Assembly (NCBI GenBank): GCA_030144725.1
Contig: JASKMD010000008.1
Location: forward strand, 2,308,143 to 2,372,142
Direction: 5' to 3'
Length of the DNA stretch: 64,000 bases
Source: Haematococcus lacustris
Lineage: Eukaryota > Chlorophyta > Chlorophyceae > Chlamydomonadales > Haematococcaceae
A model generated the notes under the pieces. It saw only the letters and a program-made list of their open reading frames with translations, was not told the origin of the DNA and ran no database searches. Below, one piece after another: positions 23,157 to 50,497 of this stretch. How positions within the stretch are numbered: position 1 is the first letter of the stretch; the number at the start of each line of letters is the position of its first letter. Both the position numbers and the translations under genes were made by a program.

Positions 23157-23674
23157 ACCGCCTGGTCTACTAAGCTGGTCGTGTTCTGCCTCCCAGCCAT
23201 ATTGTTGAGGTGGCTGGCCGGGACGCTAGCCGACTGTTGCCATGGTCGTCACACACAGTTTTCACGGGAAACCCAAATTGCTCGGTGGCGGCCGCTGGAG
23301 CTGTGCTTCTGGCCAGACCAGGGAGCGCTGCCAGCCAAGGGCAAGGAGTACCCTGGCCTGGGCTACAAGCGGCTGCGAGACAAGCCCCCCAAGGCCCAGG
23401 AGCAGCAGCAGCAGCCTGCTGAGGCACAGTAATGTGTGCCCCCTTTGTTGAGCTGTCATCAGCTCACAATCAGTGCATGTTTTGTCATGCCAACTCTACA
23501 TCATATAGCCCTCGGGTCAGACAATACTGTAGGTGGTAGGCGGCTCATGTGCCATGTGCACTGGGTTTACTCCACACAGCCCAATAACACTATTTTAGCC
23601 GGAGCTAGTTAGTGGCTGCTAGTGGCTGCTAGTTCCGGCTAAAATGGAGGCCCTAGTGAGGGACAAGGGGGCTG
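23157..23674 (+). mobile_element. Internally deleted Fanzor-like element (about 518 bp)
   Basis: Left part (23157-23283) matches the 5' segment seen at 49113-49240 and 53335-53462. It is fused directly to the C-terminal coding end: RWRPLELCFWPDQGALPAKG, then GYKRLRDKPPK and a Gln-rich tail to the stop at 23430-23432. The 3' trailer that follows matches 50264-50526, including the hairpin. The protein middle and all RuvC residues are missing, so this is a MITE-like derivative with both element ends kept. Confidence 0.75.
23592..23645 (+). ncRNA. Candidate guide-RNA scaffold hairpin of the Fanzor-like element, copy 1
   Basis: Arms 23592-23608 and 23629-23645 form a 17-bp stem with one G.T pair and a 20-nt loop, 160 nt after the stop codon and about 29 nt before the element's right end. 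The homologous hairpin at 50422-50497 differs at four paired positions and stays paired at each. TnpB and Fanzor guide RNAs are known to come from this 3' region. The RNA itself is inferred, not seen. Confidence 0.5.
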
Positions 23675-23719
23675 TATGGGTTCATGTTAAAAAAAAAAAC
23701 AGAAAGGTGCACCCCACTC

Positions 23720-24100
23720 ACAGTCAGGTGTCCCCAACATTCAAAAAATGGCTGGAAATGATAGGAAACCGACCCCTGGTAATCAAAACGACGCCGCGTC
23801 TCAGCCACGTGGTTTCTATTTAGGTTTCGCACATCCCTGGATAGAGGACTCTGTCAGCTATGCGGTGCAGCTTGTAACATTAAATACTGTGCACTGTGCT
23901 GAGTGCTATGGCGGCTCGAATCTTGACATTCAAATTCATGCCAGTTTTGCTCATGCGAGCCTCGCCGCGACCGACCGCCGCGACCGACGTGGCCCAGTAG
24001 CCTCTGCAAACAGTCAGGGACAGTCGCCGCAGTCAAAACAATGCACATGGCACGCAAAACCGATGTAACGACGCCCCTCCACCCATGCTCGGAAGTATAC
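23720..24100 (-). repeat. Dispersed element end, copy 1
   Basis: Matches 54957-55285 over about 300 bp, with shared blocks near AGGTGTCCCCAAC, TAATCAAAACGACGCCGCG and a CGACCGACCGCCGCGACCGA block. Partial copies of the first blocks recur at 54222-54275 and 54712-54795. In both long copies it is followed, reading minus strand upstream, by the KR-rich and Pro-rich coding segment, so it looks like the non-coding end of that element. Confidence 0.6.
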
Positions 24101-24101
24101 A

Positions 24102-25076
24102 ACGCTGGTGCATTGCTTGACCGCTTCGTGAGTAGTACCTACTACCTGGCCACTCTGTAAGGCCACACAAGGTGTGTAGGCCATTGCTACGTTACCTTGC
24201 TCGACTTGTTGGGTCCGGTCCCTCCCGCCCGCCCTCCGCTTGCGTGTCGAGCTGGTGTCCAGCTCCGCCCTGACCCCCTGCTGCTCAGCTGGAGGGGTGG
24301 GCAGCCCAGGGGCAGCACCAGCACCAGCTGCCTGCTGCTGCCAGGGGGGTGCAGCAGGAGGGGGGGGCAGCCCAGGGGCAGCACCAGCACCAGCCGCCAG
24401 CTCCTGCCAGGGGGGTGCAGCAGGAGGTGGTAGCAGGTCAGGGGCGGCACCAGCACCAGCTGCCTGCTGCTGCCAGGGGGGTGCAGCAGGAGTGGGGGGC
24501 AGGTCAGGTGCGGCACCAACACCTGCTGCCTGCTGCTGCCAGGGGGGTGCAGCAGGAGGGGGGGGCAGGTCAGGGGCGGCACCAGCACCTGCTGCCTGCT
24601 GCTGCCAGGGGGGTGCAGCAGGAGGGGGGGGCAGGTCAGGGGCGGCACCAGCACCGGCACCTGCTGCTACCCCCAGCTCATCGCCATGCAGGGCGGCTAC
24701 TGTGTTGCAGATATGGGCCATGACAAGACCCTTCAGCTTGGGCTTCAGCCACCCCTTCATAAGCTCCTGCTGGTGGAAGCGAAGGTAAGCTTGCAACTCC
24801 CTAACAGATAGCTTCTCAGCCTCTTCGACAGTGGTGTGGCTGTAATCGCGCCCATCATAGGTCCTCAAGGTCGTGCACTTTGGCAGCAAGGACCTCCTCA
24901 ATAGCATGTAGCAACTGAGCCTCGGTCATCAGCAGCTCATTCTCTGCCTGCACCTCCTGGGCAATGTCGTTAGCCCTCCTTGCTGTAGCTTTTAGGCCAT
25001 TAGGACTGTGCAGGTGAGCAGCCCTTGGTGACTTTACAAGTGCTGCAAGATGAGCACGCTGCCGGCTGGGACTCAT
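24102..25076 (-). pseudogene. SAP-like / coiled-coil / Pro-rich repeat protein, frameshifted
   Basis: Unrecognised protein, minus strand, start at 25076 (MSPSRQRAHLAALV). In order: a charged coiled-coil stretch (about 24880-24990), a frameshift near 24860 by loss of one base, then EAEKLSVRELQAYLRF...KPKLKGLVMAHI (about 24710-24820), which resembles a SAP DNA-binding helix-turn-helix. Next come five to six 60-66-bp repeats rich in Pro, Ala and Gln (24290-24660), then a basic segment STRKRRAGGRD (about 24240) and MAYTPC. The basic end recurs at 55265-55445 as STRKRKAGVRDW, so this belongs to a repeated, probably transposon-borne, gene. Role unknown. Confidence 0.5.
24290..24660 (-). repeat. Coding minisatellite, 60-66 bp unit
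   Basis: Five to six tandem units, each encoding a variant of APDLPPPPAAPPWQQQAAG on the minus strand. They stay in frame despite base changes, suggesting the expansion happened while the frame was open. Confidence 0.85.
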
Positions 25077-25099
25077 GGGTTTGCGTCTTGCAATGACTT

Positions 25100-27226: not shown

Positions 27227-27227
27227 G

Positions 27228-28007
27228 GCTGGCCCAGCATGGTCGTCACACACAGTTTTCACGGGAAACCCAAATTGCTCGAAAAGGCCCCCGCCCGTCG
27301 CATTGCGTATCGCGTGATGGCTAAGAAGAAGCGGAAGGGTAGCGACAAGAAACAGAAAGGTGCGTGTCCCCAGCCGACTGTGAGCTGCGTGAGTTACGCG
27401 CTGTGAGATAACCCGTCGCTCCTGTTCGCAGTGTCTCGTTCCGCCCAAGGCAAGCAACGACAGGAGCGCAGGGATGGCTGGACCACTCGTCGCCGTCAGG
27501 TGCCGGCCCCGCCTTATGTGTCCCCGCACTGTTTGTGCTGACCCCGCCTTGTGTCTTGGCCTGTCAAAATGGCCTGTTAAAATGTCAATTGCGCTTGGCT
27601 GCAGGTCATCAAGGTCCCCGAGGGCGCAGTGCTGCGCGGCTGCAAGAAGACGCGGCGCAAGCTGCGGGAGCACCTCCGGCTGCGGGCTGAAACCCACTCC
27701 CAGCTCCGATTCATCGCTTCGCTGTTTGTCCTGCGCATCTTTCTGACATGCTTGGTGGGGTACCCTACCCCGGGATGTGCCAGCGCCCCTCAGCCTCCAG
27801 CCGTCCAACCCCCCCAAGGCCCTGATGCTCCCCCCCTACCCCCACTACCCCCACGTGCCCCTGCCCAGCCAGCACCTGCCCAGCCTGCCAGCATGGAGTG
27901 TGACACTGAATCTGACTCCGAGTCAGACTGTGGTTCAGAGCCAGAGCCACAGTCTGACTCGGAGTCAGAGTCAGAGTCAGAGTCAGAACCTGAGCCAGTC
28001 GCGCAAC
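27228..28007 (+). pseudogene. Fanzor-like N-terminal fragment cut by an LTR
   Basis: Shares 27235-27551 with 49200-49520. A basic N-terminus MAKKKRKGSDKKQK (ATG at 27317) ends at a donor (AAAG then GTGCGT); an acceptor CTGTTCGCAG leads into SRSAQGKQRQERRDGWTTRR. After a second probable intron (CTTGGCTGCAG acceptor near 27604) comes VIKVPEGAVLRGCKKTRRKL, unique to this copy, then Pro-rich sequence and an acidic Ser-Glu repeat (27894-27998). The frame runs into the LTR, whose first bases TGTAG create the stop. The basic N-terminus is a likely nuclear localisation signal. Catalytic parts are absent. Confidence 0.6.
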
Positions 28008-28214
28008 TGTAGCGAACGGCTCCTCGAAGCCTAGCTCGCCTCACGGTACTTCTGTACTGCAGTGTGACATGGTGGGCGAAAGGGGCAGGTGGGCCTTCGT
28101 GCACACCTGCTTCAGAGGTTCGACTCCTCGGGGGAAACGTTCTAAACCCTGGCCGTGTCACGCTGTGGGAAAGAGGTGGTTATCGGTTATCGGCACTGCT
28201 CTTAGCACGCTACA
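28008..28214 (+). repeat. LTR of a diverged Ty3/gypsy-type element
   Basis: 207 bp bounded by inverted termini TGTAGCG and CGCTACA, followed after 3 bases by a primer-binding-site-like sequence identical in 17 bases to that of the minus-strand elements. Contains a perfect Pol III B-box-like GGTTCGACTCC at 28117-28127 and the string GTTCTAAACCC that the other LTRs also carry. Confidence 0.75.
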
Positions 28215-28217
28215 TTT

Positions 28218-28234: not shown

Positions 28235-28263
28235 TGTACTAACGCCACTTTCCCTCTGAGCAA

Positions 28264-28331
28264 ATGACTGCCAACAAGGAGCCTCCTCCTGGAGGAGACA
28301 AACGACCGGAGCGTTCTGCTCCTGGGGGCCA
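28264..28331 (+). CDS. gag N-terminus of the diverged element, cut by the gap
   Basis: Starts MTANKEPPPGGD, clearly related to MTDKEPPGNSN, the second methionine of the minus-strand gag. Only 22 codons remain before the assembly gap. Confidence 0.6.
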
Positions 28332-28831
28332 NNNNNNNNNNNNNNNNNNNNNNNNNNNNNNNNNNNNNNNNNNNNNNNNNNNNNNNNNNNNNNNNNNNNN
28401 NNNNNNNNNNNNNNNNNNNNNNNNNNNNNNNNNNNNNNNNNNNNNNNNNNNNNNNNNNNNNNNNNNNNNNNNNNNNNNNNNNNNNNNNNNNNNNNNNNNN
28501 NNNNNNNNNNNNNNNNNNNNNNNNNNNNNNNNNNNNNNNNNNNNNNNNNNNNNNNNNNNNNNNNNNNNNNNNNNNNNNNNNNNNNNNNNNNNNNNNNNNN
28601 NNNNNNNNNNNNNNNNNNNNNNNNNNNNNNNNNNNNNNNNNNNNNNNNNNNNNNNNNNNNNNNNNNNNNNNNNNNNNNNNNNNNNNNNNNNNNNNNNNNN
28701 NNNNNNNNNNNNNNNNNNNNNNNNNNNNNNNNNNNNNNNNNNNNNNNNNNNNNNNNNNNNNNNNNNNNNNNNNNNNNNNNNNNNNNNNNNNNNNNNNNNN
28801 NNNNNNNNNNNNNNNNNNNNNNNNNNNNNNN
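28332..28831. other. Assembly gap (500 N)
   Basis: Exactly 500 N, probably a placeholder length. It lies between a plus-strand element running in from the left and a minus-strand gag running in from the right, so the true content is retrotransposon sequence of unknown length. Confidence 0.98.
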
Positions 28832-29251
28832 TGGATCTGACCTAGGGCCTGTAGGAGCTCGAGGCCTTACTTGAGTGTTGATGGTGGAGAGCGTCTGCCG
28901 CATAGCCTCGTTCTCAGCCGTCAGCTGGGCTTGGCGTTGCTCCAGCTCCTCAATGTACTCCAAATCTCCTCCAGTGTAGCGTCCTGGCGGCACGTCCATC
29001 TCGCCTTCCTCGATGCCTTCACCAAGAGCATCGCCAAGGCCGCCACCAGGGCCGTCTTCAGGGGCCATAGAGCCGCCTGACGGGGTGTTAAACACCGCCT
29101 TGAACTTCTCACGCATGGCTGGATTAGCCTGTGCGGCTTCGATGAGCTTGTCCATCATATCGAACGCTGTTTCCAGTGGAGTTGTAACAGGCGGGGCTGT
29201 GGTAACACCAGACCCGGCGTTGGAGTTGCCAGGAGGCTCTTTGTCCGTCAT
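28832..29251 (-). CDS. gag N-terminal part of array copy C, cut by the gap
   Basis: Matches residues 1-140 of the complete gag at 33670-35193. The start chosen is the second methionine (MTDKEPP), because the first (29279-29281) lies in the primer binding site. Confidence 0.85.
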
Positions 29252-29263
29252 GTTGCTGTGTGT

Positions 29264-29724: not shown

Positions 29725-32700
29725 TCAAGGCAGGTTATGCACAGCCTTATACCTAGACAAGATCTGAGGAGCACCAGCTAGGTTAGCTTCTGGCTCCCAA
29801 GTGTTGTAGGTGTCATCATAGCCAGTCCACTTGACCAGGTACTCCATGCGCTTCTTGAACCGTACCTGCCTGTGATTCAACAGGCTATGCACTTCATAGT
29901 GAGGAGCATCTTCCAGCCACTCCAACACAGGAGGGGGGTGGAACCCCTGGCTGCCAGTGTACTTCTTAAGAAGTGACACATGGAACACGGGGTGCAACCT
30001 GCTCATGGTGGGAGGTAGCTCCAACCTATAGGCAGACTCACCTAGCCTACCGGTGACCTTGAAAGGTCCCACATACCTAGGCAAGAACTTACGTGCTTTG
30101 CCTGGTGCATTGCGCAGGTTCTTGGTGCTCAGCAAGACACCGTCACCCACGCTGAACGTGACATCACGCCTACGCTTATTCTCATACCTTTCTTGGCGAT
30201 CCTGAGCCACCCTCATGCACTCCTGGGCATGCTTCACCTCATGCTCCCACTTCTTGGCAAAGCTCTCAGCGGAGGGCGAGAGGCACGGCCTGGGCAGCTT
30301 ATGCAACATAGGCGTAATGGGTGACTGTCCATAGTTCACCAGGAATGGTGTAGACTGAATGGACTCCTGCCAGGAATTATTAATGGCAAACTCGGCAAAA
30401 GCCAGATGTCTAGGCCAATCAACCTGGGTAGGCAGGATATAATGTCTAAGCATTTCTTCCACAGTTTGATTAGTACGCTCAGTTTGCCCATTAGACTCTG
30501 GATGATACGCAGTGCTGAAAGCAGGGTCTACGCCTATCAGCTTCCTGACCTCAATCCAGAACTGATTGTTAAAGGTCGCACCACGATCAGAGATGGTAAC
30601 TTTAGATAGACCATGGTATTTAAATACGTGGTCAATGTAAAGTTCAGCAAACTCTTTAGCATCCATGGCCTCAATGCATGGGATTAAGTGAACCATCTTT
30701 GACAGACGATCCACGACCACACAAATTGAGTCATAGCCATGCACACCGACTGGAAGTTTAACCACCAAATCCATGGTGACAGATTCCCAGCGGTACCCAG
30801 GTATAGACAAGGGATTTAGCAACCCACCAGGAACCTGGCGAGAAGCTTTGTTACGTTGGCATGCGTCACAATTAGCCACATAGTGTCTAACATCAGTGCG
30901 CATAGTTTTCCACCAGAACACCCTGCGCACACGCTCCAAGGTCTTGGTGATGCCAACATGGCCAGCATACTTAGCATCATGCATTTCGTGCAAAATATGC
31001 TCTCGCAGCTGAATATCATTAGGGACTATAATAGTGCCTTTATCAAGATGTCGCCACAGTCCCTCCTGGGTCATTTCCCACTCCTCATTAGGTTCAGCAA
31101 AGGCGGGATCAGTGCTATAGGCACTAATTAGCCAATCTGTGACCTGAGAAGGGTGACCTGGACACTCAGGGAGCTGTGCCTCACAGTCATTAGAGACCGG
31201 GTCAGCCCACCTTAACCGCTTAGGCTCTGATGGCTTTAGAGCATCATCAGAGTCAGCATCATGGTCAGAGTCTGATCCAGCGGCAGGCTGCTGTTCGCTG
31301 CCCCCGCTGCCGCTGCCCAACGGTGTACCCGCACCGGCTTCCTCCCCCTCCTGTAATCTCCGCTTCTGCTGCCTGGTCGTCACCAGGATTTTGTCAGTAT
31401 CAGTCTTAGCCGTCGCTGAAGTTACTGGAATACGTGACAGTGGGTCTGCAGGATTAGTGTTGCCAGGTAGGTATTTGATGGTGTAATCAAATCGGGACAG
31501 GAATTCCAACCAGCGGCTCTGCCTACGGGACAGTGTAGACTGCGTAGGTAGGGCCTCTAGAGGGCGGTGATCAGTATACAGTGTGAATTGCACACCTTCA
31601 AGGTAGCATCGCCACTGTGTACACGCAGCAATAATAGCCAGTGTTTCCTGCTCCCCAGTGGTATAATTCTTTTCAGCCTTTGTAAGCTTACGAGAATAAT
31701 AAGCAAGGGGATAACCATCCTGCATCAAGACTGCCCCGACACCCAGTAATGAAGCGTCACAGTAGACTTGGAAAGGTTTGGTTGTATCAGGAAGGCGGAG
31801 CATAGGCACACGCATGACTGCCTGCTTTACAGCGTTGAAGGCATCTAACTGAGGTTTAGGCCACTCCTCCCAGTTAAAAGATTTGCCTTCAGGTCCAGTC
31901 AGATTAGTGAGTGGAGCTGCAATGGCACTGAAATTATGTACAAATTTACGTACATAATTGGCCATGCCAAGAAATGACTGCAAGGCTGTCAGGTTCGTAG
32001 GAACAGGCCAGTCTTTTATTGCAGCCACCTTGCTGGGGTCTACAGCTACACCATCTTTAGAGATGATGTGACCCAGAAAAGGTAAAGACTCTTTCATAAA
32101 ATCACACTTAGAAAGTTTAGCAAAGTATTTGTGTTTCCTCAACAATTCAAATACTTCACGAAGGTGGACGAGGTGTTCCTTAATAGACTTGGACATGATT
32201 AGAATGTCATCAAGATATACAAGGGCACACTTGTCAATCACCTCGGCAAATGCCTGGTTCATGGCACGTTGAAACGTGGCCGGTGCATTGGTTAAACCAA
32301 AGCACAGAACTTTGTATTGGTAATGACCTATGGGTGTCCTAAACGCAGTTTTAGGAATATCTTCATCAGGGATCCTGATCTGATGGTAACCAGCCTGGAG
32401 ATCCAGGGAAGAGAACACGGTCATACCGGAAAGTTTATCAAATAGATCATCAATCCTGGGTAGAGGGTATTGGTCACGAATGGTGAGCTTATTGAGTTGA
32501 CGATAGTCTACGCACATACGTAGTTCTCCAGTTTTCTTCTTTACAAAAAGAACGGGCGCTGCATAAGGGGATGTGCTAGGCTCAATCAACCCTTTGGATA
32601 GCATGTCAGTGACCTGTTTCTTAACCTCATCCTGTTCTGGCTTACTCATCCTATAACTGGGCCTGGCAGGAGGCTTAGCACCTTCCTGCAAGGGAATGGA

Positions 32701-33669
32701 ATGCCCCACGTTACGCGCAGGAGGCAACCCAGTTATAGGCTGAAACACATCAGAGTACTCCATAAGGAGGCTCTTCAGCTGTGCAGCCTGCTCAGGTGGT
32801 ACGCCAGGTGGGTCTTGCAAGTTCTCATAAGAGACCAATGCCACCACACCTGTACCACCTTGCTTGAGCCATCTTGCAGCCTCTTTGGCAGACAAGGGTG
32901 TAGAGACACCGCTTGGGCCAGGCTCAAGGAAACCAGGGGGTATAGCATAAGCTTCTTTTACAGGGTTTACAGTAGATTGAGACTCAACTGTACAGTTCAC
33001 TGACCCACCTTTGTTGATAGCTGAAGGTAGTAGCACAGGACTGCCCTTAGGGGTACGCAGGGTAAGGGACTTGTCGATGTAGTCGACCAGTGCCCCCTGC
33101 ACAGTAAGCCAGTCAGCACCCAGCAGAATGTCATACTCATGCACCAGTTCAGGCATCACAGTCAAGTTGCAAAAGCAGCTGAATTGCTGAATGGACAGGT
33201 GTGCCTTGACATAATGCGTGCAATACACCGGTTGATTATTGGCAACTTCATAACGAAGAGCCACCGGGTACTCATACAGCTTCAGCTTGTGCTTAGACAC
33301 AAACATGTGACTGATGAACGAGTCATCAGCACCACCGTCAGCAAGGCAAAAGCACTTGTGATCATGGTTAAGGGTGCCAGAAAACCTGAATCTCACCTTG
33401 CCATCACGTCCAACCATCCCAAGTACATGTGCCTGTTGGTACCGAGCCTCAGAAGGCACAGCAGTCTTACATGGCACATCACTTAACACAGAACATGGCA
33501 GTCCTGTTGGCAGGGCAGGCTGGGACATATCAGGGCAGGCTAACAAAGGAACCTGAGTTGAGTTGGCCTTAGGCTTACTCACACTCCTTGCTCCTACAAC
33601 TGCAGCATCATTCAACAGTTGCTCAGGTTCAGACACAGCACAGATCTGGCTGTCTGGCTGCGCAACACT
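29725..33669 (-). CDS. pol: Pol polyprotein of copy A (protease, RT, RNase H, integrase, chromodomain)
   Basis: About 1,303 residues from 33636, or 1,314 if read from just after the gag stop. In order: a retropepsin with DGGA in place of D(S/T)GA (about residue 100); reverse transcriptase with LDLQAGYHQIRI and YLDD; RNase H with YCDASLLGVGAVL and TDHRPL; integrase zinc region (H-x3-H...C-x2-C, CDACQRNKA); integrase core with MDLVVKLP, ISDRGATFNNQFW and HPESNGQTERTNQT (D, D, E present); and a C-terminal chromodomain (EYLVKWTGYDDTYNTWEPE). This order marks a Ty3/gypsy chromovirus. Pol is in the same frame as gag, separated only by a TGA and 33 bases with no ATG. Its first ATG is codon 37 here, and that codon is GTG in copy B. 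All catalytic residues look intact. Confidence 0.95.
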   Translation of the reverse strand, partial: SVAQPDSQICAVSEPEQLLNDAAVVGARSVSKPKANSTQVPLLACPDMSQPALPTGLPCSVLSDVPCKTAVPSEARYQQAHVLGMVGRDGKVRFRFSGTLNHDHKCFCLADGGADDSFISHMFVSKHKLKLYEYPVALRYEVANNQPVYCTHYVKAHLSIQQFSCFCNLTVMPELVHEYDILLGADWLTVQGALVDYIDKSLTLRTPKGSPVLLPSAINKGGSVNCTVESQSTVNPVKEAYAIPPGFLEPGPSGVSTPLSAKEAARWLKQGGTGVVALVSYENLQDPPGVPPEQAAQLKSLLMEYSDVFQPITGLPPARNVGHSIPLQEGAKPPARPSYRMSKPEQDEVKKQVTDMLSKGLIEPSTSPYAAPVLFVKKKTGELRMCVDYRQLNKLTIRDQYPLPRIDDLFDKLSGMTVFSSLDLQAGYHQIRIPDEDIPKTAFRTPIGHYQYKVLCFGLTNAPATFQRAMNQAFAEVIDKCALVYLDDILIMSKSIKEHLVHLREVFELLRKHKYFAKLSKCDFMKESLPFLGHIISKDGVAVDPSKVAAIKDWPVPTNLTALQSFLGMANYVRKFVHNFSAIAAPLTNLTGPEGKSFNWEEWPKPQLDAFNAVKQAVMRVPMLRLPDTTKPFQVYCDASLLGVGAVLMQDGYPLAYYSRKLTKAEKNYTTGEQETLAIIAACTQWRCYLEGVQFTLYTDHRPLEALPTQSTLSRRQSRWLEFLSRFDYTIKYLPGNTNPADPLSRIPVTSATAKTDTDKILVTTRQQKRRLQEGEEAGAGTPLGSGSGGSEQQPAAGSDSDHDADSDDALKPSEPKRLRWADPVSNDCEAQLPECPGHPSQVTDWLISAYSTDPAFAEPNEEWEMTQEGLWRHLDKGTIIVPNDIQLREHILHEMHDAKYAGHVGITKTLERVRRVFWWKTMRTDVRHYVANCDACQRNKASRQVPGGLLNPLSIPGYRWESVTMDLVVKLPVGVHGYDSICVVVDRLSKMVHLIPCIEAMDAKEFAELYIDHVFKYHGLSKVTISDRGATFNNQFWIEVRKLIGVDPAFSTAYHPESNGQTERTNQTVEEMLRHYILPTQVDWPRHLAFAEFAINNSWQESIQSTPFLVNYGQSPITPMLHKLPRPCLSPSAESFAKKWEHEVKHAQECMRVAQDRQERYENKRRRDVTFSVGDGVLLSTKNLRNAPGKARKFLPRYVGPFKVTGRLGESAYRLELPPTMSRLHPVFHVSLLKKYTGSQGFHPPPVLEWLEDAPHYEVHSLLNHRQVRFKKRMEYLVKWTGYDDTYNTWEPEANLAGAPQILSRYKAVHNLP

Positions 33670-35193
33670 TCAGCGGCCCACAGCAATGCGAGCAGACTGA
33701 GAGCGCCGGCCCTTAGGCTGAGCAGGTGGGGGACGCTGCTCAGGCTCAGACTCAGACTCCTCTGGCTCAGAGGGAGGCTTAGAGTCAGACTTCTGCCCAG
33801 GCTTCTTGGCACCGTTAGGTGGGTTCTGGTAGCCAGATCTGCGGCGGGCTTCAGTAGCAGTGTACTGCTGGAACGGGCAGGGCCAGTTGGACAGGTGACC
33901 AGGATGGTAGCACTTGTAACAGTACTGGCCAGGCTCAGGGCGAGGAGAGGCCCACAGGTTGACTTTCCTGGGGCGCTTGCTACCACCAGCAGGACCAGGA
34001 GGGGGACCACAGCCCCTCCTGCCTGGGCGAGCACCTCCACCCATAGCCGCCACAGCCTGCACAGCATGGACACCATTAGACACAGCACCCTTAGATGGTG
34101 TTGTGGTGGCCAGCATGACAATGTTCCTCTGCGCCTGCCGAGCAGCATCAATGGCCTGAGACAGAGTGGGGTCCTTGAAAGGAGCCAGATCCTTCAAAAC
34201 AGCAGTCTGCAAAGCAGGGCTGAGACCTCTGGTAAACACCATGCACAGCAAAGGCTGGCACATGCTGTCAGAACCTGCAATCAGCAAGTTGTTTCTGAAG
34301 GCAATGATATAGCTGCCCAAGAGCATGCCAGTGGTCATCTGAAGAGACCCGTCAATGAGCTTGGTACGAGCCACATTGCAGTCATCCCTAAGATCATCGC
34401 CTGTGTATTCACAGAAGGCGGAACGAAGGTAAGCCCAGTCAGGTGCGTCAGCATACAAAGCAGCATATGCGTCTTTGACTGAGGGGTACCAGGTGTTGCG
34501 GGCTGTGCCAGTCAAAAAAGCAGGCATAGCAGACGCAACATCAAGCCTGTAGCGAGCACAGTGACGTTCTAAGTCGTCACAAAACGCAGAGGCTCTGCGA
34601 TGAGTAGCACTGCAAGCATCAGTCCATTTGTCGGGACCTGGTATAGACCTGGCACTCAGCGACAAAGGCATAGGCAGTTCTGAAACAGGAGGGCCCATAG
34701 GGACAGCTCGTTCCCTCTGCCCGTTGTTCCCCGCAGGTCGATCAGGCAACGCAGACGCATCAGGCCTACCCGCTGGATCTGACCTAGGGCCTGTAGGAGC
34801 TCGAGGCCTTACTTGAGTGTTGATGGTGGAGAGCGTCTGCCGCATAGCCTCGTTCTCAGCCGTCAGCTGGGCTTGGCGTTGCTCCAGCTCCTCAATGTAC
34901 TCCAAATCTCCTCCAGTGTAGCGTCCTGGCGGCACGTCCATCTCGCCTTCCTCGATGCCTTCACCAAGAGCATCGCCAAGGCCGCCACCAGGGCCGTCTT
35001 CAGGGGCCATAGAGCCGCCTGACGGGGTGTTAAACACCGCCTTGAACTTCTCACGCATGGCTGGATTAGCCTGTGCGGCTTCGATGAGCTTGTCCATCAT
35101 ATCGAACGCTGTTTCCAGTGGAGTTGTAACAGGCGGGGCTGTGGTAACACCAGACCCGGCGTTGGAGTTGCCAGGAGGCTCTTTGTCCGTCAT
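33670..35193 (-). CDS. gag: Gag of copy A
   Basis: About 507 residues, capsid/nucleocapsid precursor. Acidic N-terminal part with a short coiled coil (EELEQRQAQLTAENEAM), Ty3-type capsid region (DDLERHCARYRLDVASAM...WAYLRSAFCEYTG), then a basic Gly/Pro-rich stretch and one zinc knuckle CYKCYHPGHLSNWPC. That spacing is C-x2-C-x4-H-x5-C, one residue longer than usual. Ends at TGA (33670-33672) in the same frame as pol. I chose the methionine at 35193 rather than 35223 because 35223 overlaps the primer binding site and the diverged plus-strand relative aligns from MT.KEPP. Confidence 0.9.
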   Translation of the reverse strand: MTDKEPPGNSNAGSGVTTAPPVTTPLETAFDMMDKLIEAAQANPAMREKFKAVFNTPSGGSMAPEDGPGGGLGDALGEGIEEGEMDVPPGRYTGGDLEYIEELEQRQAQLTAENEAMRQTLSTINTQVRPRAPTGPRSDPAGRPDASALPDRPAGNNGQRERAVPMGPPVSELPMPLSLSARSIPGPDKWTDACSATHRRASAFCDDLERHCARYRLDVASAMPAFLTGTARNTWYPSVKDAYAALYADAPDWAYLRSAFCEYTGDDLRDDCNVARTKLIDGSLQMTTGMLLGSYIIAFRNNLLIAGSDSMCQPLLCMVFTRGLSPALQTAVLKDLAPFKDPTLSQAIDAARQAQRNIVMLATTTPSKGAVSNGVHAVQAVAAMGGGARPGRRGCGPPPGPAGGSKRPRKVNLWASPRPEPGQYCYKCYHPGHLSNWPCPFQQYTATEARRRSGYQNPPNGAKKPGQKSDSKPPSEPEESESEPEQRPPPAQPKGRRSQSARIAVGR

Positions 35194-35205
35194 GTTGCTG
35201 TGTGT

Positions 35206-35222
35206 ACGTCGGTCGGAAACCA
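35206..35222 (-). other. Primer binding site, copy A
   Basis: Minus-strand TGGTTTCCGACCGACGT, two bases from the LTR. Confidence 0.7.
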
Positions 35223-35224
35223 TC

Positions 35225-35454
35225 TGTCACGGCGCCAGCCGCTGCCTTTAATCTTACAGAGTGAGCAGCATGTCGTTGTAATAATTAGCGCCACTGCATT
35301 ACTACCGCACTCGTCACACAGCAACTGGGCTTGGGTTTAGAACGGGACCCCCGGGAGTTGAACCCGAATGGTGGGCAGTGTACAGCCCACCAGTGACCTC
35401 CCCAGTCACTCTGCTAAAGTGTGGAATACGGACACGCGGACGCGCGCCGTTACA
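35225..35454 (-). repeat. LTR shared by copies B and A
   Basis: 230 bp with TGTAAC...GTGACA ends; B-box-like element at 35354-35364. It is both the 3' LTR of copy B and the 5' LTR of copy A. Confidence 0.87.
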
Positions 35455-35666: not shown

Positions 35667-38600
35667 TCAAGGCAGGTTATGCACAGCCTTATACCTAGAC
35701 AAGATCTGAGGAGCACCAGCTAGGTTAGCTTCTGGCTCCCAAGTGTTGTAGGTGTCATCATAGCCAGTCCACTTGACCAGGTACTCCATGCGCTTCTTGA
35801 ACCGTACCTGCCTGTGATTCAACAGGCTATGCACTTCATAGTGAGGAGCATCTTCCAGCCACTCCAACACAGGAGGGGGGTGGAACCCCTGGCTGCCAGT
35901 GTACTTCTTAAGAAGTGACACATGAAACACGGGGTGCAACCTGCTCATGGTGGGAGGTAGCTCCAACCTGTAGGCAGACTCACCTAGCCTACCTGTGACC
36001 TTGAAAGGCCCCACATACCTAGGCAAGAACTTACGTGCTTTGCCTGGTGCATTGCGCAGGTTCTTGGTGCTCAGCAAGACACTGTCACCCACGCTGAACG
36101 TGACATCACGCCTACGCTTATTCTCATACCTTTCTTGGCGGTCCTGAGCCACCCTCATGCACTCCTGGGCATGCTTCACCTCATGCTCCCACTTCTTGGC
36201 AAAGCTCTCAGCGGAGGGCGAGAGGCACGGCCTGGGCAGCTTATGCAACATAGGCGTAATGGGTGACTGTCCATAGTTCACCAGGAATGGTGTAGACTGA
36301 ATGGACTCCTGCCAGGAATTATTGATGGCAAACTCGGCAAAAGCCAGATGTCTAGGCCAATCAACCTGGGTAGGCAGGATATAATGTCTAAGCATTTCTT
36401 CCACAGTTTGATTAGTACGCTCAGTTTGCCCATTAGACTCTGGATGATACGCAGTGCTGAAAGCAGGGTCTACGCCTATCAGCTTCCTGACCTCAATCCA
36501 GAACTGATTGTTAAAGGTCGCACCACGATCAGAGATGGTAACTTTAGATAGACCATGGTATTTAAATACGTGGTCAATGTAAAGTTCAGCAAACTCTTTA
36601 GCATCCATGGCCTCAATGCATGGGATTAAGTGAACCATCTTTGACAGACGATCCACGACCACACAAATTGAGTCATAGCCATGCACACCGACTGGAAGCT
36701 TAACCACCAAATCCATGGTGACAGATTCCCAGCGGTACCCAGGTATAGACAAGGGATTTAGCAACCCACCAGGAACCTGGCGAGAAGCTTTGTTACGTTG
36801 GCATGCATCACAATTAGCCACATAGTGTCTAACATCAGTGCGCATAGTTTTCCACCAGAACACCCTGCGCACACGCTCCAAGGTCTTGGTGATGCCAACA
36901 TGGCCAGCATACTTAGCATCATGCATTTCGTGCAAAATATGCTCTCGCAGCTGAATATCATTAGGGACTATAATAGTGCCTTTATCAAGATGTCGCCACA
37001 GTCCCTCCTGGGTCATTTCCCACTCCTCATTAGGTTCAGCAAAGGCGGGATCAGTGCTATAGGCACTAATTAGCCAATCTGTGACCTGAGAAGGGTGACC
37101 AGGACACTCAGGGAGCTGTGCCTCACAGTCATTAGAGACCGGGTCAGCCCACCTTAACCGCTTAGGCTCTGATGGCTTTAGAGCATCATCAGAGTCAGCA
37201 TCATGGTCAGGGTCTGATCCAGCGGCAGGCTGCTGTTCGCTGCCCCCGCTGCCGCTGCCCAACGGTGTACCCGCACCGGCTTCCTCCCCCTCCTGTAATC
37301 TCCGCTTCTGCTGCCTGGTCGTCACCAGGATTTTGTCAGTATCAGTCTTAGCCGTCGCTGAAGTTACTGGAATACGTGACAGTGGGTCTGCAGGATTAGT
37401 GTTGCCAGGTAGGTATTTGATGGTGTAATCAAATCGGGACAGGAATTCCAACCAGCGGCTCTGCCTACGGGACAGTGTAGACTGCGTAGGTAGGGCCTCT
37501 AGAGGGCGGTGATCAGTATACAGTGTGAATTGCACACCTTCAAGGTAGCATCGCCACTGTGTACACGCAGCAATAATAGCCAGTGTTTCCTGCTCCCCAG
37601 TGGTATAATTCTTTTCAGCCTTTGTAAGCTTACGAGAATAATAAGCAAGGGGATAACCATCCTGCATCAAGACTGCCCCGACACCCAGTAATGAAGCGTC
37701 ACAGTAGACTTGGAAAGGTTTGGTTGTATCAGGAAGGCGGAGCATAGGCACACGCATGACTGCCTGCTTTACAGCGTTGAAGGCATCTAACTGAGGTTTA
37801 GGCCACTCCTCCCAGTTAAAAGATTTGCCTTCAGGTCCAGTCAGATTAGTGAGTGGAGCTGCAATGGCACTGAAATTATGTACAAATTTACGTACATAAT
37901 TGGCCATGCCAAGAAATGACTGCAAGGCTGTCAGGTTCGTAGGAACAGGCCAGTCTTTTATTGCAGCCACCTTGCTGGGGTCTACAGCTACACCATCTTT
38001 AGAGATGATGTGACCCAGAAAAGGTAAAGACTCTTTCATAAAATCACACTTAGAAAGTTTAGCAAAGTATTTGTGTTTCCTCAACAATTCAAATACTTCA
38101 CGAAGGTGGACGAGGTGTTCCTTGATAGACTTGGACATGATTAGAATGTCATCAAGGTATACAAGGGCACACTTGTCAATCACCTCGGCAAATGCCTGGT
38201 TCATGGCACGTTGAAACGTGGCCGGTGCATTGGTTAAACCAAAGCACAGAACTTTGTATTGGTAATGACCTATGGGTGTCCTAAACGCAGTTTTAGGAAT
38301 ATCTTCATCAGGGATCCTGATCTGATGGTAACCAGCCTGGAGATCCAGGGAAGAGAACACGGTCATACCAGAAAGTTTATCAAATAGATCATCAATCCTG
38401 GGTAGAGGGTATTGGTCACGAATGGTGAGCTTATTGAGTTGACGATAGTCTACGCACATACGTAGTTCTCCAGTTTTCTTCTTTACAAAAAGAACGGGCG
38501 CTGCATAAGGGGATGTGCTAGGCTCAATCAACCCTTTGGATAGCATGTCAGTGACCTGTTTCTTAACCTCATCCTGTTCTGGCTTACTCATCCTATAACT

Positions 38601-39611
38601 GGGCCTGGCAGGAGGCTTAGCACCTTCCTGCAAGGGAATGGAATGCCCCACGTTACGCGCAGGAGGCAACCCAGTTATAGGCTGAAACACATCAGAGTAC
38701 TCCATAAGGAGGCTCTTCAACTGTGCTGCCTGCTCAGGGGGTACGCCAGGTGGGTCTTGCAAGTTCTCATAAGAGACCAATGCCACCACACCTGTACCAC
38801 CTTGCTTGAGCCATCTTGCAGCCTCTTTGGCGGACAGGGGTGTAGAAACACCACCTGAGCCAGGCTCAAGGAAACCAGGGGGTATAGCATAAGCTTCTTT
38901 TACAGGGTTTACAGTAGATTGAGACTCAACTGTACAGTTCACTGACCCACCTTTGTTGATAGCTGAAGGTAGTAGCACAGGCCTGCCCTTAGGGGTACGC
39001 AGGGTAAGGGACTTGTCGACGTAATCGACCAGAGCCCCCTGCACAGTAAGCCAGTCAGCACCCAGCAGAATGTCATACTCATGCACTAGTTCAGGCATCA
39101 CAGTCAAGTTACAAAAGCAGCTGAATTGCTGGATGGACAGGTGTGCCTTGACATAGTGCGTGCAATACACCGGTTGATTATTGGCAACTTCATAACGAAG
39201 AGCCACCGGGTACTCATACAGCTTCAGCTTGTGCTTAGACACAAACATGTGACTGATGAACGAGTCATCAGCACCACCGTCAGCAAGGCAAAAGCACTTG
39301 TGATCATGGTTCAGGGTGCCAGAAAACCTGAATCTCACCTTGCCATCACGTCCAACCATCCCAAGTACATGTGCCTGTTGGTACCGAGCCTCAGAAGGCA
39401 CAGCAGTCTTACATGGCACATCACTTAACACAGAACATGGCAGTCCTGTTGGCAGGGCAGGCTGGGACACATCAGGGCAGGCTAACAAAGGAACCTGAGT
39501 TGAGTTGGCCTTAGGCTTACTCACACTCCTTGCTCCTACAACTGCAGCATCATGCAACAGTTGCTCAGGTTCAGACACAGCACAGATCTGGCTGTCTGGC
39601 TGCGCAACACT
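35667..39611 (-). CDS. pol: Pol polyprotein of copy B
   Basis: Same length and domains as the copy A pol; about a dozen amino-acid differences (for example PDVSQ for PDMSQ, GSDPDH for GSDSDH). All catalytic motifs including YLDD and the integrase D, D, E are kept. The same in-frame TGA separates it from gag. Confidence 0.94.
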   Translation of the reverse strand, partial: SVAQPDSQICAVSEPEQLLHDAAVVGARSVSKPKANSTQVPLLACPDVSQPALPTGLPCSVLSDVPCKTAVPSEARYQQAHVLGMVGRDGKVRFRFSGTLNHDHKCFCLADGGADDSFISHMFVSKHKLKLYEYPVALRYEVANNQPVYCTHYVKAHLSIQQFSCFCNLTVMPELVHEYDILLGADWLTVQGALVDYVDKSLTLRTPKGRPVLLPSAINKGGSVNCTVESQSTVNPVKEAYAIPPGFLEPGSGGVSTPLSAKEAARWLKQGGTGVVALVSYENLQDPPGVPPEQAAQLKSLLMEYSDVFQPITGLPPARNVGHSIPLQEGAKPPARPSYRMSKPEQDEVKKQVTDMLSKGLIEPSTSPYAAPVLFVKKKTGELRMCVDYRQLNKLTIRDQYPLPRIDDLFDKLSGMTVFSSLDLQAGYHQIRIPDEDIPKTAFRTPIGHYQYKVLCFGLTNAPATFQRAMNQAFAEVIDKCALVYLDDILIMSKSIKEHLVHLREVFELLRKHKYFAKLSKCDFMKESLPFLGHIISKDGVAVDPSKVAAIKDWPVPTNLTALQSFLGMANYVRKFVHNFSAIAAPLTNLTGPEGKSFNWEEWPKPQLDAFNAVKQAVMRVPMLRLPDTTKPFQVYCDASLLGVGAVLMQDGYPLAYYSRKLTKAEKNYTTGEQETLAIIAACTQWRCYLEGVQFTLYTDHRPLEALPTQSTLSRRQSRWLEFLSRFDYTIKYLPGNTNPADPLSRIPVTSATAKTDTDKILVTTRQQKRRLQEGEEAGAGTPLGSGSGGSEQQPAAGSDPDHDADSDDALKPSEPKRLRWADPVSNDCEAQLPECPGHPSQVTDWLISAYSTDPAFAEPNEEWEMTQEGLWRHLDKGTIIVPNDIQLREHILHEMHDAKYAGHVGITKTLERVRRVFWWKTMRTDVRHYVANCDACQRNKASRQVPGGLLNPLSIPGYRWESVTMDLVVKLPVGVHGYDSICVVVDRLSKMVHLIPCIEAMDAKEFAELYIDHVFKYHGLSKVTISDRGATFNNQFWIEVRKLIGVDPAFSTAYHPESNGQTERTNQTVEEMLRHYILPTQVDWPRHLAFAEFAINNSWQESIQSTPFLVNYGQSPITPMLHKLPRPCLSPSAESFAKKWEHEVKHAQECMRVAQDRQERYENKRRRDVTFSVGDSVLLSTKNLRNAPGKARKFLPRYVGPFKVTGRLGESAYRLELPPTMSRLHPVFHVSLLKKYTGSQGFHPPPVLEWLEDAPHYEVHSLLNHRQVRFKKRMEYLVKWTGYDDTYNTWEPEANLAGAPQILSRYKAVHNLP

Positions 39612-40531
39612 TCAGCGGCCCACGGCAATGCGAGCGGACTGAGAGCGCCGGCCCTTAGGCTGAGCAGGTGGGGGACGCTGCTCAGGCTCAGACTCAGACT
39701 CCTCTGGCTCAGAGGGAGGCTTAGAGTCAGACTTCTGCCCAGGCTTCTTGGCACCGTTAGGTGGGTTCTGGTAGCCAGATCTGCGGCGGGCTTCAGTAGC
39801 AGTGTACTGCTGGAACGGGCAGGGCCAGTTGGACAGGTGACCAGGATGGTAGCACTTGTAACAGTACTGGCCAGGCTCAGGGCGAGGAGAGGCCCACAGG
39901 TTGACTTTCCTGGGGCGCTTGCTACCACCAGCAGGACCAGGAGGGGGACCACAGCCCCTCCTGCCTGGGCGAGCACCTCCACCCATAGCCGCCACAGCCT
40001 GCACAGCATGGACACCATTAGACACAGCACCCTTAGATGGTGTTGTGGTGGCCAGCATGACAATGTTCCTCTGCGCCTGCCGAGCAGCATCAATGGCCTG
40101 AGACAGAGTGGGGTCCTTGAAAGGAGCCAGATCCTTCAAAACAGCAGTCTGCAAAGCAGGGCTGAGACCTCTGGTAAACACCATGCACAGCAAAGGCTGG
40201 CACATGCTGTCAGAACCTGCAATCAGCAAGTTGTTTCTGAAGGCAATGATATAGCTGCCCAAGAGCATGCCAGTGGTCATCTGAAGAGACCCGTCAATGA
40301 GCTTGGTACGAGCCACATTGCAGTCATCCCTAAGATCATCGCCTGTGTATTCACAGAAGGCGGAACGAAGGTAAGCCCAGTCAGGTGCGTCAGCATACAA
40401 AGCAGCATATGCGTCTTTGACTGAGGGGTACCAGGTGTTGCGGGCTGTGCCAGTCAAAAAAGCAGGCATAGCAGACGCAACATCAAGCCTGTAGCGAGCA
40501 CAGTGACGTTCTAAGTCGTCACAAAACGCAG
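39612..40531 (-). pseudogene. gag: Gag of copy B, 5'-truncated
   Basis: Matches copy A gag from the capsid region to the zinc knuckle and TGA. Homology stops at about 40531 (after HCARYRLD reading back to AFCDDLER) and is replaced by an AT-rich repeat. No start codon, LTR or primer site remains for this copy. Confidence 0.88.
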
Positions 40532-40697
40532 CTAAATCAATACTATGACTCTTATTAATGTAAAAGTATTTAGTATTAATACTATGACTCTTATTAATGT
40601 AATAGTATTAATATTATGACTCTTATTAATATATTATATATATAAAGTATTAATACTATGACTCTTATTAATGTAAAAGTATAATGTAAAAGTATCA
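40532..40697. repeat. AT-rich short repeat block
   Basis: About 165 bp made of four to five imperfect copies of a unit containing ACTATGACTCTTATTAATGT. Far more AT-rich than anything else in the window. Looks like filler or organelle-like sequence at a breakpoint. Confidence 0.8.
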
Positions 40698-46500: not shown

Positions 46501-47809
46501 TGGTATGGTGCCAGGACCCTGTGGTGTGGTGCCAGGACCATGTGATGTGGTGCCAGGACCCTGTGGGAGTGGTGCCAGGACCCTGTGTGCCAGAACCCTG
46601 TGGGTGTGCGGCAGAACCCTGTAGCCAAACGTCGCAGGACCCTGTAGGCGTGCGGCAGAACCCTGTAGCCAAACGTCGCAGGACCCTGTAGGCGTGCGGC
46701 AGAACCCTGTAGCCAAACGTCGCAGGACCCTGTAGGCGTGCGGCAGGACCCTGTAGCCAATCGTCGCAGGACCCTGTAGGCGTGCGGCAGGACCCTGTAG
46801 ACTAACGTCGCAGGACCCTGTGTGCCAGAACCCTGTGGGTGTGCAGCAGGACACAGTAGGCCAGGACCCTGTGGTGCCAGGACCTTGTGATGTGGTGCCC
46901 GGACCCTGTGGTGTGGTGCCAGGACCCTGTGTGCCAGGACCCTGTGGTGTGGTGCCAGGACCCTGTGGTGTCTGGACCCTGTGGTGTGGTGCTAGGACCC
47001 TGTAGGCCAGGACCCTGTGGTGTGGTGCCAGAACCCTGTAGGCCAAGACCTGGTGGTATGGTGCCAGGACCCTGTGGTGTGGTGCCAGAACCCTGTAGGC
47101 CAGGACCCTGTGGTGAGGTGCCAGGACCCTGTGGTGTGGTGCCAGGACCCTGTGGTGTGGTGCCAGGACCCTGTAAGCCAGGACCCTGTGGTGTGGTGCC
47201 AGGACCCTGTGAGCCACAACCCTGTGGTGTGGTACCAGGACCCTGTGGAGAAAGACACACATCGTAGGACCCTGTACAGGGTCCTGGCACACATGGTCGA
47301 AAGCATCCAAACGGGGTCAACATGACCAACCACCGGCTATGTAGGAATCCTAACTGGGTTCTATCACATAGGGATGCAAAGAATGATTATAATATCAACA
47401 CTCATAGGGTACACAGGACCCTGTACATGGTCAGCAGGACCCTGTACAGGGTCCTACGACCATGATGTCGCTAGGACCCTGTACAGGGTCCTAGGACACG
47501 GGCCATAGCTCATCACTGGCTGAGACTTTTTGCATGCCACCTACTAGGTTGGGCAGCTGTAACCACCCTCCACAACCTCTCATACTCACATTTCATGAAA
47601 AGCCACTTTGGTCACACGGTGCCAACTCCCTTAGCCAAAATCAGGGTCACAGCCCCACACCTGGCCCAGCAACTCGACACCGAGTGAGAATTACACTTTG
47701 GCCCAAGAGAGTCTTGTCATCCCCTAGGTCACAGCAGCCCACATACCAAGTTTCAGACCTCAACTCTCAGGTTTTTCAAGCCATCCAGGCCTTAATTTGC
47801 ACGAGTGTA

Positions 47810-47990
47810 GCCTCCAGCGGGTAGGGGATGCCCAGCGCCTAGTGGAGCTGTGCCGATGGCCAGGCCAACCAGCGGCTCCTGTCCTAGGCAAGGAGTACCC
47901 AGCAGCACCTGGGTTGCATAATGTGCTGCAGCGCAAACTCCAATCGGCCAAGCTGTACCCCAGCATCTTACATGTTGACAGCTGTTGACA
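47810..47990 (+). pseudogene. C-terminal fragment of another Fanzor-like lineage
   Basis: Frame ending at about 47988 reads LQRVGDAQRLVELCRWPGQP, then LGKEYPAAPGLHNVLQRK. It aligns position by position with LNMQRIGESRWRPLELCFWP and KGKEYPGLGYKRLRDK of the 50 kb copy. The sequence begins exactly where macrosatellite copy 3 stops, so the upstream RD motif is lost. Confidence 0.5.
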
Positions 47991-48841
47991 GCACAGTTGT
48001 TCCCCTACAATTACTACAGGGCAGGGGCTGTGTTATCTGTTGTCCGATCTGTTTGCATGCAGCAAGCATCCGGTACCACTACCGGATTCACTGCCCCAAC
48101 CCACTTGCGAAGGCTGGGCAATCTATTATGGCATGAACACATGCTGTGCTGGCCTAGGGTGCTCGGTCTTGCAGCCTCATGGAGCTTCTTGGGTACTCCT
48201 AGCTTTAGACTCCGACAGCACGGCTTCAGCACGGCCTGACCCGTCGACCTCCGCATCCTGCGAGCACACGGGACAGGGCGTAGGATAAGCGTGCGTGTGT
48301 GCGGGTGTGCAGCGGGTGTGCAGTGTGCGGGTACGGCAATTGATGCGGTGTGCAATTGATGTGCGGGGCTGTGTGCGAGACTATGCAAGACTGCGTGCGA
48401 GACTGGGCTGTGTGCGGACTGGGCTGTGTGCGGGGCTGAAACGTGGGCTTACCAGGTATTGGGGCGGATGTCGCGTCGTGTTCCATCTCATGAGACGCTA
48501 TCACGGCTGTGCGTGTCGCTCTGAAAGAACAAGCGCACAGCGGGGTTGGTTACGGGCCAGGGCTAGGGCCAGGGCTGGTGCGGTGCTGGTGCTCACCTTC
48601 GATGGAATCCCACAGCGGGGAGACATAGGGTCCAGGCCTGTAACGGCGCAGGGAGCCACGCCTGCGCCAAGACAGAGGTCGATGTGTGGCAAAAGCAGCT
48701 TTTATTCGGTCCGCTGTCACACTGTGCGCTGTCCGTCCTTTGACAGCCGTTTCATTGGATGACAGGCCCTTAGCTACTGGCTAGCCCCGCAGACAGCTGT
48801 TGACAGCAGCATTACCTTGCTATCAGGTTGTGACTGCGATA
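47991..48841. other. Intergenic; low-complexity GTGTGCGGG region
   Basis: 48290-48440 is a loose repeat of GTGCGGG/TGCGAGACTG words. No gene or RNA recognised. Confidence 0.45.
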
Positions 48842-49279
48842 GGCGGCTACACGCCATGAGAAGCGCGTCCAGGCTGTTGCCATGGTCCCATAGCATGGTC
48901 CTACATGTGTGGATAGCCCAAGCATGTGTTTGATGTAATTCAGTATGGTGTTTTTATACCAGGCAAGAGCTGGTCAAGTAAGCTAGGATCACAGCCACAT
49001 AGTGCTAGGAGTGCACTCGCAGGGGTTTGCAGCAATGAAGCCTACATGCAACGTGTTGCCTCTATCTTGTCAACCCACCGAGGACAACTGAGTTAAACAC
49101 TGTAACCAAGTCGACCGCCTGGTCTACTAAGCTGGTCGTGTTCTGCCTCCCAGCCATATTGTTGAGGTGGCTGGCCGGGACGCTAGCCGACTGTTGCCAT
49201 GGTCGTCACACACCGTTTTCACGGGAAACCCAAATTGCTCGAAAAGGCCCCCGCCCGTCGCACTGCGCATCGCGTGATG

Positions 49280-50265
49280 GCTAAGAAGAAGCGGAAGGGT
49301 AGCGACAAGAAACAGAAAGGTGCGTGTCCCCAGCCGACTGTGAGCTACGTGAACTACGCGCTGTGAGATAACCCGTCGCTCCTGTTCGCAGCGTCTCGTT
49401 CCGCCCAAGGCAAGCAACGACAGGATCGTCGGGATGGCTGGACCACGCGTCGACGTCAAGTGCCGGCCCCGCCTTATGTGTCCCCGCACTGTTTGTGCTG
49501 ACCCCGCCTTGTGTCTGGGTATGGGTATGGGTGTGCCAAGCAGCTGGTGGTGTTCTTTGGCGCTGCTAGCATTGGCACAGCGGGTGGGTGGGGTGCTGAT
49601 GCGGTGCTGCGTGCCTGCCGCAAGGTGGTGTGCAGGCCCAGGGGCGCAGACCAGGATGGGGGCAGGGTGGTGCTTGTGGATGAGCACCGCACCAGCCGGG
49701 TCAGCTCAGCAGTGAATGGCAAGCAGCCCTGTGAGGTGGAGCTGAATGCACTCAGTGCCACAAGACCCGCAGGCTGGAGGCCACCAGCAGGGCAGGTGGA
49801 ACCCCGCCTGGTGCGCCCAGCCTGGAGCCAGGAGCGTGGCCAGCCAGTGCGGGGCCTGATGTGGTGCCCAGTAGTTGCCCCCGCAGGCCCCCACAGGCCC
49901 CACGCAGCAGCCAGGCAGCCACACAGCCAGCAGCCTCAGAGCCAGGGCCCAGCACTCCCCCTCTAGCCAAGCGCAGCAAGCCGGCAGCTGAGCCCACCAA
50001 GGGCAATGGCAAGGCCCATGGCAAGGCTGCGAGGGCAAAGCCAGCCCCACAGCCAGGCAGGTGGCTGGACAGGGATTGCAATGCAGCATTGAACATGCAG
50101 CGCATTGGGGAGAGCAGGTGGCGGCCGCTGGAGCTGTGCTTCTGGCCAGAGCAAGGGAAGCTGCCAGCCAAGGGCAAGGAGTACCCTGGCCTAGGCTACA
50201 AGCGGCTGCGAGACAAGCCCCCCAAGACCCAGGAGCAGCAGCAGCAGCCTGCTGAGGCACAGTGA
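49280..50265 (+). pseudogene. Fanzor-like protein, N-terminus joined to RuvC-II/III half
   Basis: MAKKKRKGSDKKQK (ATG at 49279-49281), intron 49319-49391 (donor GTGCGT, acceptor TTCGCAG), SRSAQGKQRQDRRDGW. After a stop and the internal deletion the frame resumes at KQLVVFFGAASIGTAGGWGA (49539), then VVLVDEHRTSRVSSAVNGK (about 49670), VRGLMWCPVVAP (about 49850), a one-base frameshift near 49870, a basic linker, and RWLDRDCNAALNMQRIGES (about 50060-50115), ending KDKPP/Gln-rich tail at 50265. The motifs correspond to the Fanzor G-x-A...E-x-R-T-S...RD-x-N-A-A core. Of the zinc-ribbon cysteines only two remain (PCE, MWCP). Non-functional as it stands. Confidence 0.75.
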
Positions 50266-50421
50266 TGTGTGCCCCCTTTGTTGAGCTGTCATCAGCTTAC
50301 ACTTAGTGCATGCAGGTCATGCCAACTCTACATCATAGCCCTCGGGTCAGGCAATAGGGTAGGTGGTAGGCGGCTCATGTGCCATGTGCACTGGGTTTAC
50401 TCCACACAGCCCAATAACACT

Positions 50422-50497
50422 GTTTGAGTCGGATCTAGTTAGTGGCTGCTAGTGGCTGCTAGTGGCACCTAGTAGGTACTTCTGATCCGGCTCAAAT
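50422..50497 (+). ncRNA. Candidate guide-RNA scaffold hairpin, copy 2
   Basis: Arms 50422-50435 and 50484-50497, 14 bp including two G.T pairs, 48-nt loop (15 nt more than copy 1 from an extra GTGGCACCTAGTA block). Relative to copy 1, T-A is replaced by G-C, G.T by T-A, C-G by T.G and A-T by G.T. All are tolerated on the plus-strand RNA, whereas on the minus-strand RNA the G.T pairs would be A.C mismatches. Confidence 0.5.

Follow-up and report, generated by a model that had tools for sequence, protein, structure and literature searches.

Introduction

The closest known system to the transposon family described here is that of the Chlamydomonas reinhardtii Fanzor1 elements CRe-1, CRe-2 and CRe-3, for which the available text of the paper that describes them proposes no guide RNA (PMC3627910). 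Fanzor omega-RNAs lie between the stop codon and the right end of the element; that of SpuFz1 is a protein-bound transcript that extends 14–15 nt into the flank (PMC10432273), and the shape of the Fanzor1 scaffold varies among lineages (PMC11423790). Here we analysed a 64,000-nucleotide stretch (the window) of a 21,499,393-base contig in the 308-Mb Haematococcus lacustris assembly. The window contains two Fanzor-like elements, copy A and copy B, each with a hairpin near its right end. We interpret the stem of this hairpin as the P2 helix of a structured 3' domain that forms the fixed insertion end and would also be an omega-RNA scaffold, a combined reading in which our confidence is evenly poised.

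Similar to CRe-1, CRe-2 and CRe-3, this Fanzor-like family of a green alga has introns, frequent 5' truncation, internal deletions and an intact 3' end, as well as target duplications of variable length with a fixed motif directly before them and a hairpin near the 3' end (PMC3627910). The fixed 3' end combined with a variable 5' end and variable duplications, seen in a sample gathered with 3'-end queries, is the one-ended pattern of Helitron2-like and CRe-like elements. However, the motif is GGCTG here and TTTT or T-rich in the CRe elements, and an asymmetric terminal inverted repeat was not found in seven copies of our family (PMC3627910). Stem loops encoded where the locus ends on its right side, here known from sequence alone, also characterise the omega-RNAs of SpuFz1, GtFz1 and PpFz1, and the many gene-less copies (ghost loci) of SpuFz1 are a further likeness. 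In contrast to the accounts available for these systems, we found no inverted repeats such as those of the SpuFz1 elements, and the insertion motif recurs at the end of the element (PMC10432273, PMC11423790). An uncharacterised Fanzor-encoding element is the top repeat of the genome of another green alga, Auxenochlorella, a likeness by description only (PMC12633428). A description of the present family was not found among the papers listed in searches on Fanzor and related elements, subscription papers being outside coverage, and the word Fanzor was not found in the main text, as available, of the H. lacustris genome paper (PMC7617258).

Boundaries of the two elements

Copy A is a 519-bp, internally deleted Fanzor-like element on the plus strand (23156–23674). 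It is delimited by 13-nt target-site duplications at 23143–23155 (TATGGGTTCATGT) and 23675–23687, by GGCTG at 23138–23142 just before the left duplication, and by a right end identical to that of other copies. Copy B is longer (48846–50526, plus strand) and its left end is inferred from a near-duplicated flank, in which CGATAGGCG (48837–48845) and CAATAGGCG (50527–50535) match by reading at eight of nine positions with one mismatch; an exact-match scan did not recover this repeat and returned just 7 nt elsewhere. The right ends given in the original prediction, 23674 and 50526, were correct, and the starts needed adjustment from 23157 to 23156 and from 48842 to, probably, 48846. Its assignment of both copies as descendants of a TnpB/Fanzor-like gene held. 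In copy B, an open frame at 49735–50265 on the plus strand covers the C-terminal region of the Fanzor-like product (DRDCNAALNMQRIGESR), as identified by protein matches.

Copy A, at locus L001 (G000:C476:2331542), and a second locus, L002 (1574699), have common flanks and a common target duplication and carry elements of 519 and 1502 bp, respectively. Because flanks and duplication are the same and the lengths differ, copy A seems to be an internally deleted version of a single insertion, which seems to be carried by a duplicated segment or haplotype. A common right flank likewise links L004 and L006.

A predicted three-helix domain at the 3' end

The hairpin was confirmed in copies A and B, and it is conserved and located at the right end, downstream of the stop codon, as originally predicted. 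We recovered the stem of copy A (23592–23608 with 23629–23645) with 17 pairs including one G.T, and that of copy B (50422–50435 with 50484–50497) with 14 pairs, two of them wobble. Folding predicts a longer stem than first noted, with 20 pairs in copy A and 16 in copy B, and places it within a domain of about 100 nt composed of a closing helix (P1), this middle stem (P2) and a small hairpin (P3). P1 pairs CAGCCC with GGGCTG, the last six bases of the element. Along the plus strand of copy A the fold assigns the P1 5' strand to 23577–23582, the P2 arms to 23590–23609 and 23628–23647 (which contain the arms first noted and agree with the pair table below), the P3 hairpin CCCT-AGTG-AGGG to 23651–23662 and the P1 3' strand to 23669–23674, immediately after which the flanks diverge. 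The corresponding plus-strand positions in copy B are 50407–50412, 50420–50435, 50484–50499, 50503–50514 and 50521–50526, the last of these being also the right end indicated by the flanks of related copies.

Five tails were folded, namely those of copies A and B and of loci L027b, L033c and L009d. The three helices were predicted alike in three of the five, with z-scores of -5.01 (A), -5.04 (B) and -5.8 (L027b), and none of 200 shuffles folded as well as the A and B ends. Compared with Rfam, copy A alone gave no known RNA family near threshold; the best match was a miRNA family at 18.6 bits against a threshold of 62 (E 0.46). An RNA-model search of 29 sequence sources returned no family beyond those recovered before.

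Pair changes and variation along the trailer

The four pairs reported to differ between copies A and B were confirmed (A-T/G.T, T-A/G-C, C-G/T.G and G.T/T-A), and two of them represent a change on both sides. In an alignment of 17 tails (16 picked from 46 distinct tails, plus L009d), 94.8% of cells pair and four pairs are altered on both sides, counts that are inflated by sequence relatedness; shuffled controls averaged 1.3 such pairs, with 1 of 500 reaching four, and slid versions of the stem gave 0–2. Because of this relatedness, and because one pair was misaligned for copy B, we scored the 14 pairs of the stem by direct reading in 63 distinct copies selected by a text pattern.

Among these 63 copies, which are related and sample only two large lineages, two of the 14 pairs differ on both sides from one lineage to the other. 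At pair 5, 33 copies have T-A, 21 have G-C, 7 have T.C, and T.G and G.A occur once each; at pair 13, 40 copies have G.T and 20 have T-A, with single occurrences of C-G, T.T and C.A. Five of the six haplotypes represented by at least three copies are fully paired, and the sixth (6 copies) carries a mismatch. Across the 14 distinct stem haplotypes, 19 cells are G.T, five are C.A and nine hold other mismatches. The claim that the wobbles work only for RNA of the coding sense is therefore weaker than stated; the excess of G.T over C.A is only a hint at the coding strand, among haplotypes that are not independent.

Departures from the majority sequence, scored over 42 A-type copies, fall from 0.0347 per site in 23433–23570 to 0.0074 in 23571–23674. 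The low-variation stretch starts near 23532–23556, such that the final ~130 nt are less variable than the upstream trailer. Within it, the P2 arms show 0.0138 and 0.0125 departures per site and the loop 0.0071; the P1 5' strand has none in 252 cells, P3 none in 504 and the P1 3' strand three in 230. Since the arms are more variable than the loop, the P1 5' strand and P3, the stem is not alone in varying little.

Insertion pattern and target sites

We scanned 46 right ends, three of which look like chance matches of the search pattern, and found target duplications of 9–13 nt at 24 of them, against a background of 2.9% among 2070 mismatched flank pairs. Copies with a target duplication have a single right boundary and a variable left one, with lengths from 186 to 4008 bp. 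After removal of two entries that repeated an insertion already counted, in duplicated segments, 22 sites remained. The duplication is preceded by GGCTG in 18 of the 22, by GACTG in two, and by TACTG and AGGTG in one each; all 22 have T at -2 and G at -1, while position -3 is C in 21, position -4 is G in 19 and position -5 is G in 20. TTTT preceded the duplication in none of these 22 insertions. The target matches the element end over 2–8 nt (mean 5.3). By this pattern, the 3' domain forms the end that stays fixed when copies insert.

The shortest insertion, L015, consists of the trailer only (186 bp, with an 11-nt duplication); since truncation may occur during insertion, it is no proof that a trailer suffices by itself. 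A piece at L056 matches just the last 48 bases and its duplication is ambiguous. Junction alignments, which included L016 itself and duplicated loci, comprised 43 unspliced and no spliced cases, and an origin as spliced-mRNA retrocopies was rejected on this ground. A transposon terminal inverted repeat, named in the original prediction as an explanation that would undo it, was not borne out as the source of the stem in the seven copies tested. In these copies, whose true 5' end is not fixed, the longest inverted match between 5' region and tail was 5–7 nt, no better than chance (p 0.34–1.0).

Upstream of the common TTTTTCACGGGAAACCCAA segment, at least three different leaders occur (L015, L016, L021, L027, L031, L035 and others), some of which contain short inverted repeats (TGTGATTTCACA, CGTGTATTTTTCACG).

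The encoded Fanzor-like protein

The putative gene, modelled by reading the L016 sequence, has five exons in an element of ~3.7 kb. Its conceptual product is 927 residues long, with one stop kept as X, and residues 270–920 served as the query in a protein search. Among 7993 scored candidates, 623 relatives were found at E ≤ 0.001; at least 120 of these, those listed, are all from H. lacustris. A consensus of 22 aligned homologs retains GVGIDPG, DEHRTS and DRDCNAALN, which supply the elements of the RuvC motif: the aspartate of GVGIDPG, an acidic residue in DEHRT, and RD-N-AA-N. The catalytic acidic residue is assigned tentatively.

Other protein features are less complete. The Cas12f1-like TNB domain (PF07282) exceeded the cut-off in one of eight proteins, P0011, over 14 residues. 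The C4 zinc finger expected between [TS][TS]xx and RD, following the motif that Bao and Jurka give in the available text of PMC3627910, has only two of its four cysteines here (HRTSRVSSAVNGQQPC...MWCP). No solved structure was matched in a sequence search of the PDB, and structure-based identification failed, as the AlphaFold2 model of P0067 had a mean predicted local distance difference test (pLDDT) score of 39. Because of the missing cysteines, the sparse TNB signal and the absence of a structure match, we call the protein Fanzor-like rather than a proven Fanzor1. Over the last 153 coding bases of 42 copies, mismatches per site relative to copy A are 0.065 at third positions and 0.008–0.011 at the others; judging from this codon-position pattern, the gene seems to have been formerly under selection.

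Family size and other features of the window

A 301-base query from copy A returned 3878 first-look candidates, unconfirmed as copies, of which 40 were scored; a 201-base query from copy B returned 2031, of which 40 were scored, with 41 matches. The two candidate sets may overlap, and the copies sampled are skewed towards sequences closely related to copies A and B.

Two Fanzor-like remnants with no recognisable tail lie at 13666–13779 on the plus strand, where tblastn matched only a foreign N-terminal piece of P0018, and at about 55000–55700 on the minus strand, recognised by antisense frames and sequence similarity only. The window also contains two near-identical long frames on the minus strand (29725–35226 and 35667–40607), reverse-transcriptase-like and integrase-like, that by eye resemble a retroelement. 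Near 28260–28840 the translation gives X. Simple tandem repeats at 9.9–10.5, 14.8–15.4, 17.8–18.8, 20.4–21.2 and 40.7–41.5 kb yield long frames on both strands, and repeated blocks at 41.5–42.5, 43.6–45.1 and 46.3–47.3 kb have open-frame text in common, apparently through local duplication.

Discussion

According to the reading that we favour, a high-copy Fanzor-like transposon family of H. lacustris ends in a structured 3' domain that, when transcribed in the coding sense, would serve the Fanzor-like nuclease as its omega-RNA scaffold. P1 would close this scaffold at the last base of the element, and the guide would be read from the right flank. The domain is encoded between the stop codon and the right end, as omega-RNA placement requires, which makes a guide-RNA role plausible on positional grounds; the mobility-end and guide-RNA roles may coexist. 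The predicted helices, the low variation of the final stretch, the paired changes in excess of both controls, the apparent past constraint on the protein and the target duplications above the control rate, together with the trailer-only insertion of 186 bp, also speak for the reading as a whole. The pair pattern would fit selection for pairing in active lineages and decay in dead copies.

A number of observations weigh against this reading. The original prediction had proposed further copies as a check on compensation, and these gave a divided answer: paired changes exceed those in controls, but a group of six copies has an uncompensated T.C mismatch in arms that are otherwise identical, six of the eight singleton haplotypes contain mismatches, which speaks against an automatic guide-RNA reading, and 7 of 14 aligned pairs are broken in the divergent L033c. 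The L033c trailer, ~72% identical to that of copy A, retains P1 and P3 with P2 rearranged (z -1.84), and in L009d the domain does not form, its fold being not significant (z -0.89). The loop is less variable than the stem arms, and the zinc finger is incomplete. Partial trailers without the terminal domain occur at L020 (6273), at L024 (2935, 7595) and on the minus strand of the window near 59735. Two Fanzor-like remnants detected by tblastn (459–1741, minus strand; 27434–27784, plus strand) have no recognisable tail, which counts against a universal 3' end; such remnants and partial trailers may belong to other subfamilies or be damaged copies. The common 3' end is itself built into a sample gathered with 3'-end queries and, since the same segment is the fixed insertion boundary, a mobility signal would look equally conserved. 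The simplest guide model faces one main objection: the insertion motif GGCTG, which we assume to be the target-adjacent motif (TAM), is also the element's own right end, so that in the usual layout a guide from the right flank would match its own locus.

It is possible, although we think it somewhat unlikely, that the hairpins are solely a DNA-level mobility end like that of one-ended Helitron2-like elements, with the guide located elsewhere or the nuclease disused. CRe-1, CRe-2 and CRe-3, which were assigned to Helitron2, share the 5' truncation and the intact 3' end and have duplications of 7–19 bp, and Helitron2 elements carry a 3'-terminal hairpin (PMC3627910, as far as its text is available). 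The 43 unspliced junctions, with none spliced, also favour a DNA route, yet the asymmetric terminal inverted repeats of Helitron2 were not found in the seven copies, and it is GGCTG that precedes 18 of the 22 insertions, TTTT preceding none. The same absence of spliced junctions runs counter to a role as a reverse-transcriptase recognition structure, given that intron loss is not seen. This model proposes target-primed copying of an unspliced transcript into GGCTG, with GGGGGCUG annealing to the nicked target. Although the fixed right boundary, the variable 5' truncation, the variable-length duplications and the 2–8 nt match between target and element end would suit such priming, we regard it as improbable.

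Less probable again is a signal in the 3' untranslated region of the transposon mRNA that acts in RNA processing, termination or as a small-RNA precursor. The location 3' of the stop codon, the long near-perfect hairpin and the best Rfam match, a miRNA family though far below threshold, point this way; a helix P1 that stops exactly at the last base of the element would be unneeded for such a signal. That only two stem pairs differ on both sides between two big lineages, in copies that are not independent, leaves some room for the stem being a functionless inherited accident of two young families. We consider this highly improbable in light of z-scores of about -5 in three tails and of arms, loop and P3 that are less variable than the upstream trailer.

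The reading of the 3' domain as insertion end and candidate scaffold can be extended to one domain with two jobs, which as DNA or RNA would be the fixed end of a one-ended insertion at GGCTG that retains introns and is primed by microhomology, and which as RNA would scaffold the element's own nuclease; in this specific form we find it doubtful and rather unlikely. As the element end recreates GGCTG, a guide would match the element's own right junction and, were this true, cleavage of that junction by the nuclease could set off further copying. The analysis yields a precisely delimited candidate omega-RNA, open to testing, for a Fanzor-like family of a green alga whose genome holds thousands of first-look candidates. 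It also places the one-ended insertion pattern of the Chlamydomonas CRe elements in a second alga, with another motif and a microhomology rule.

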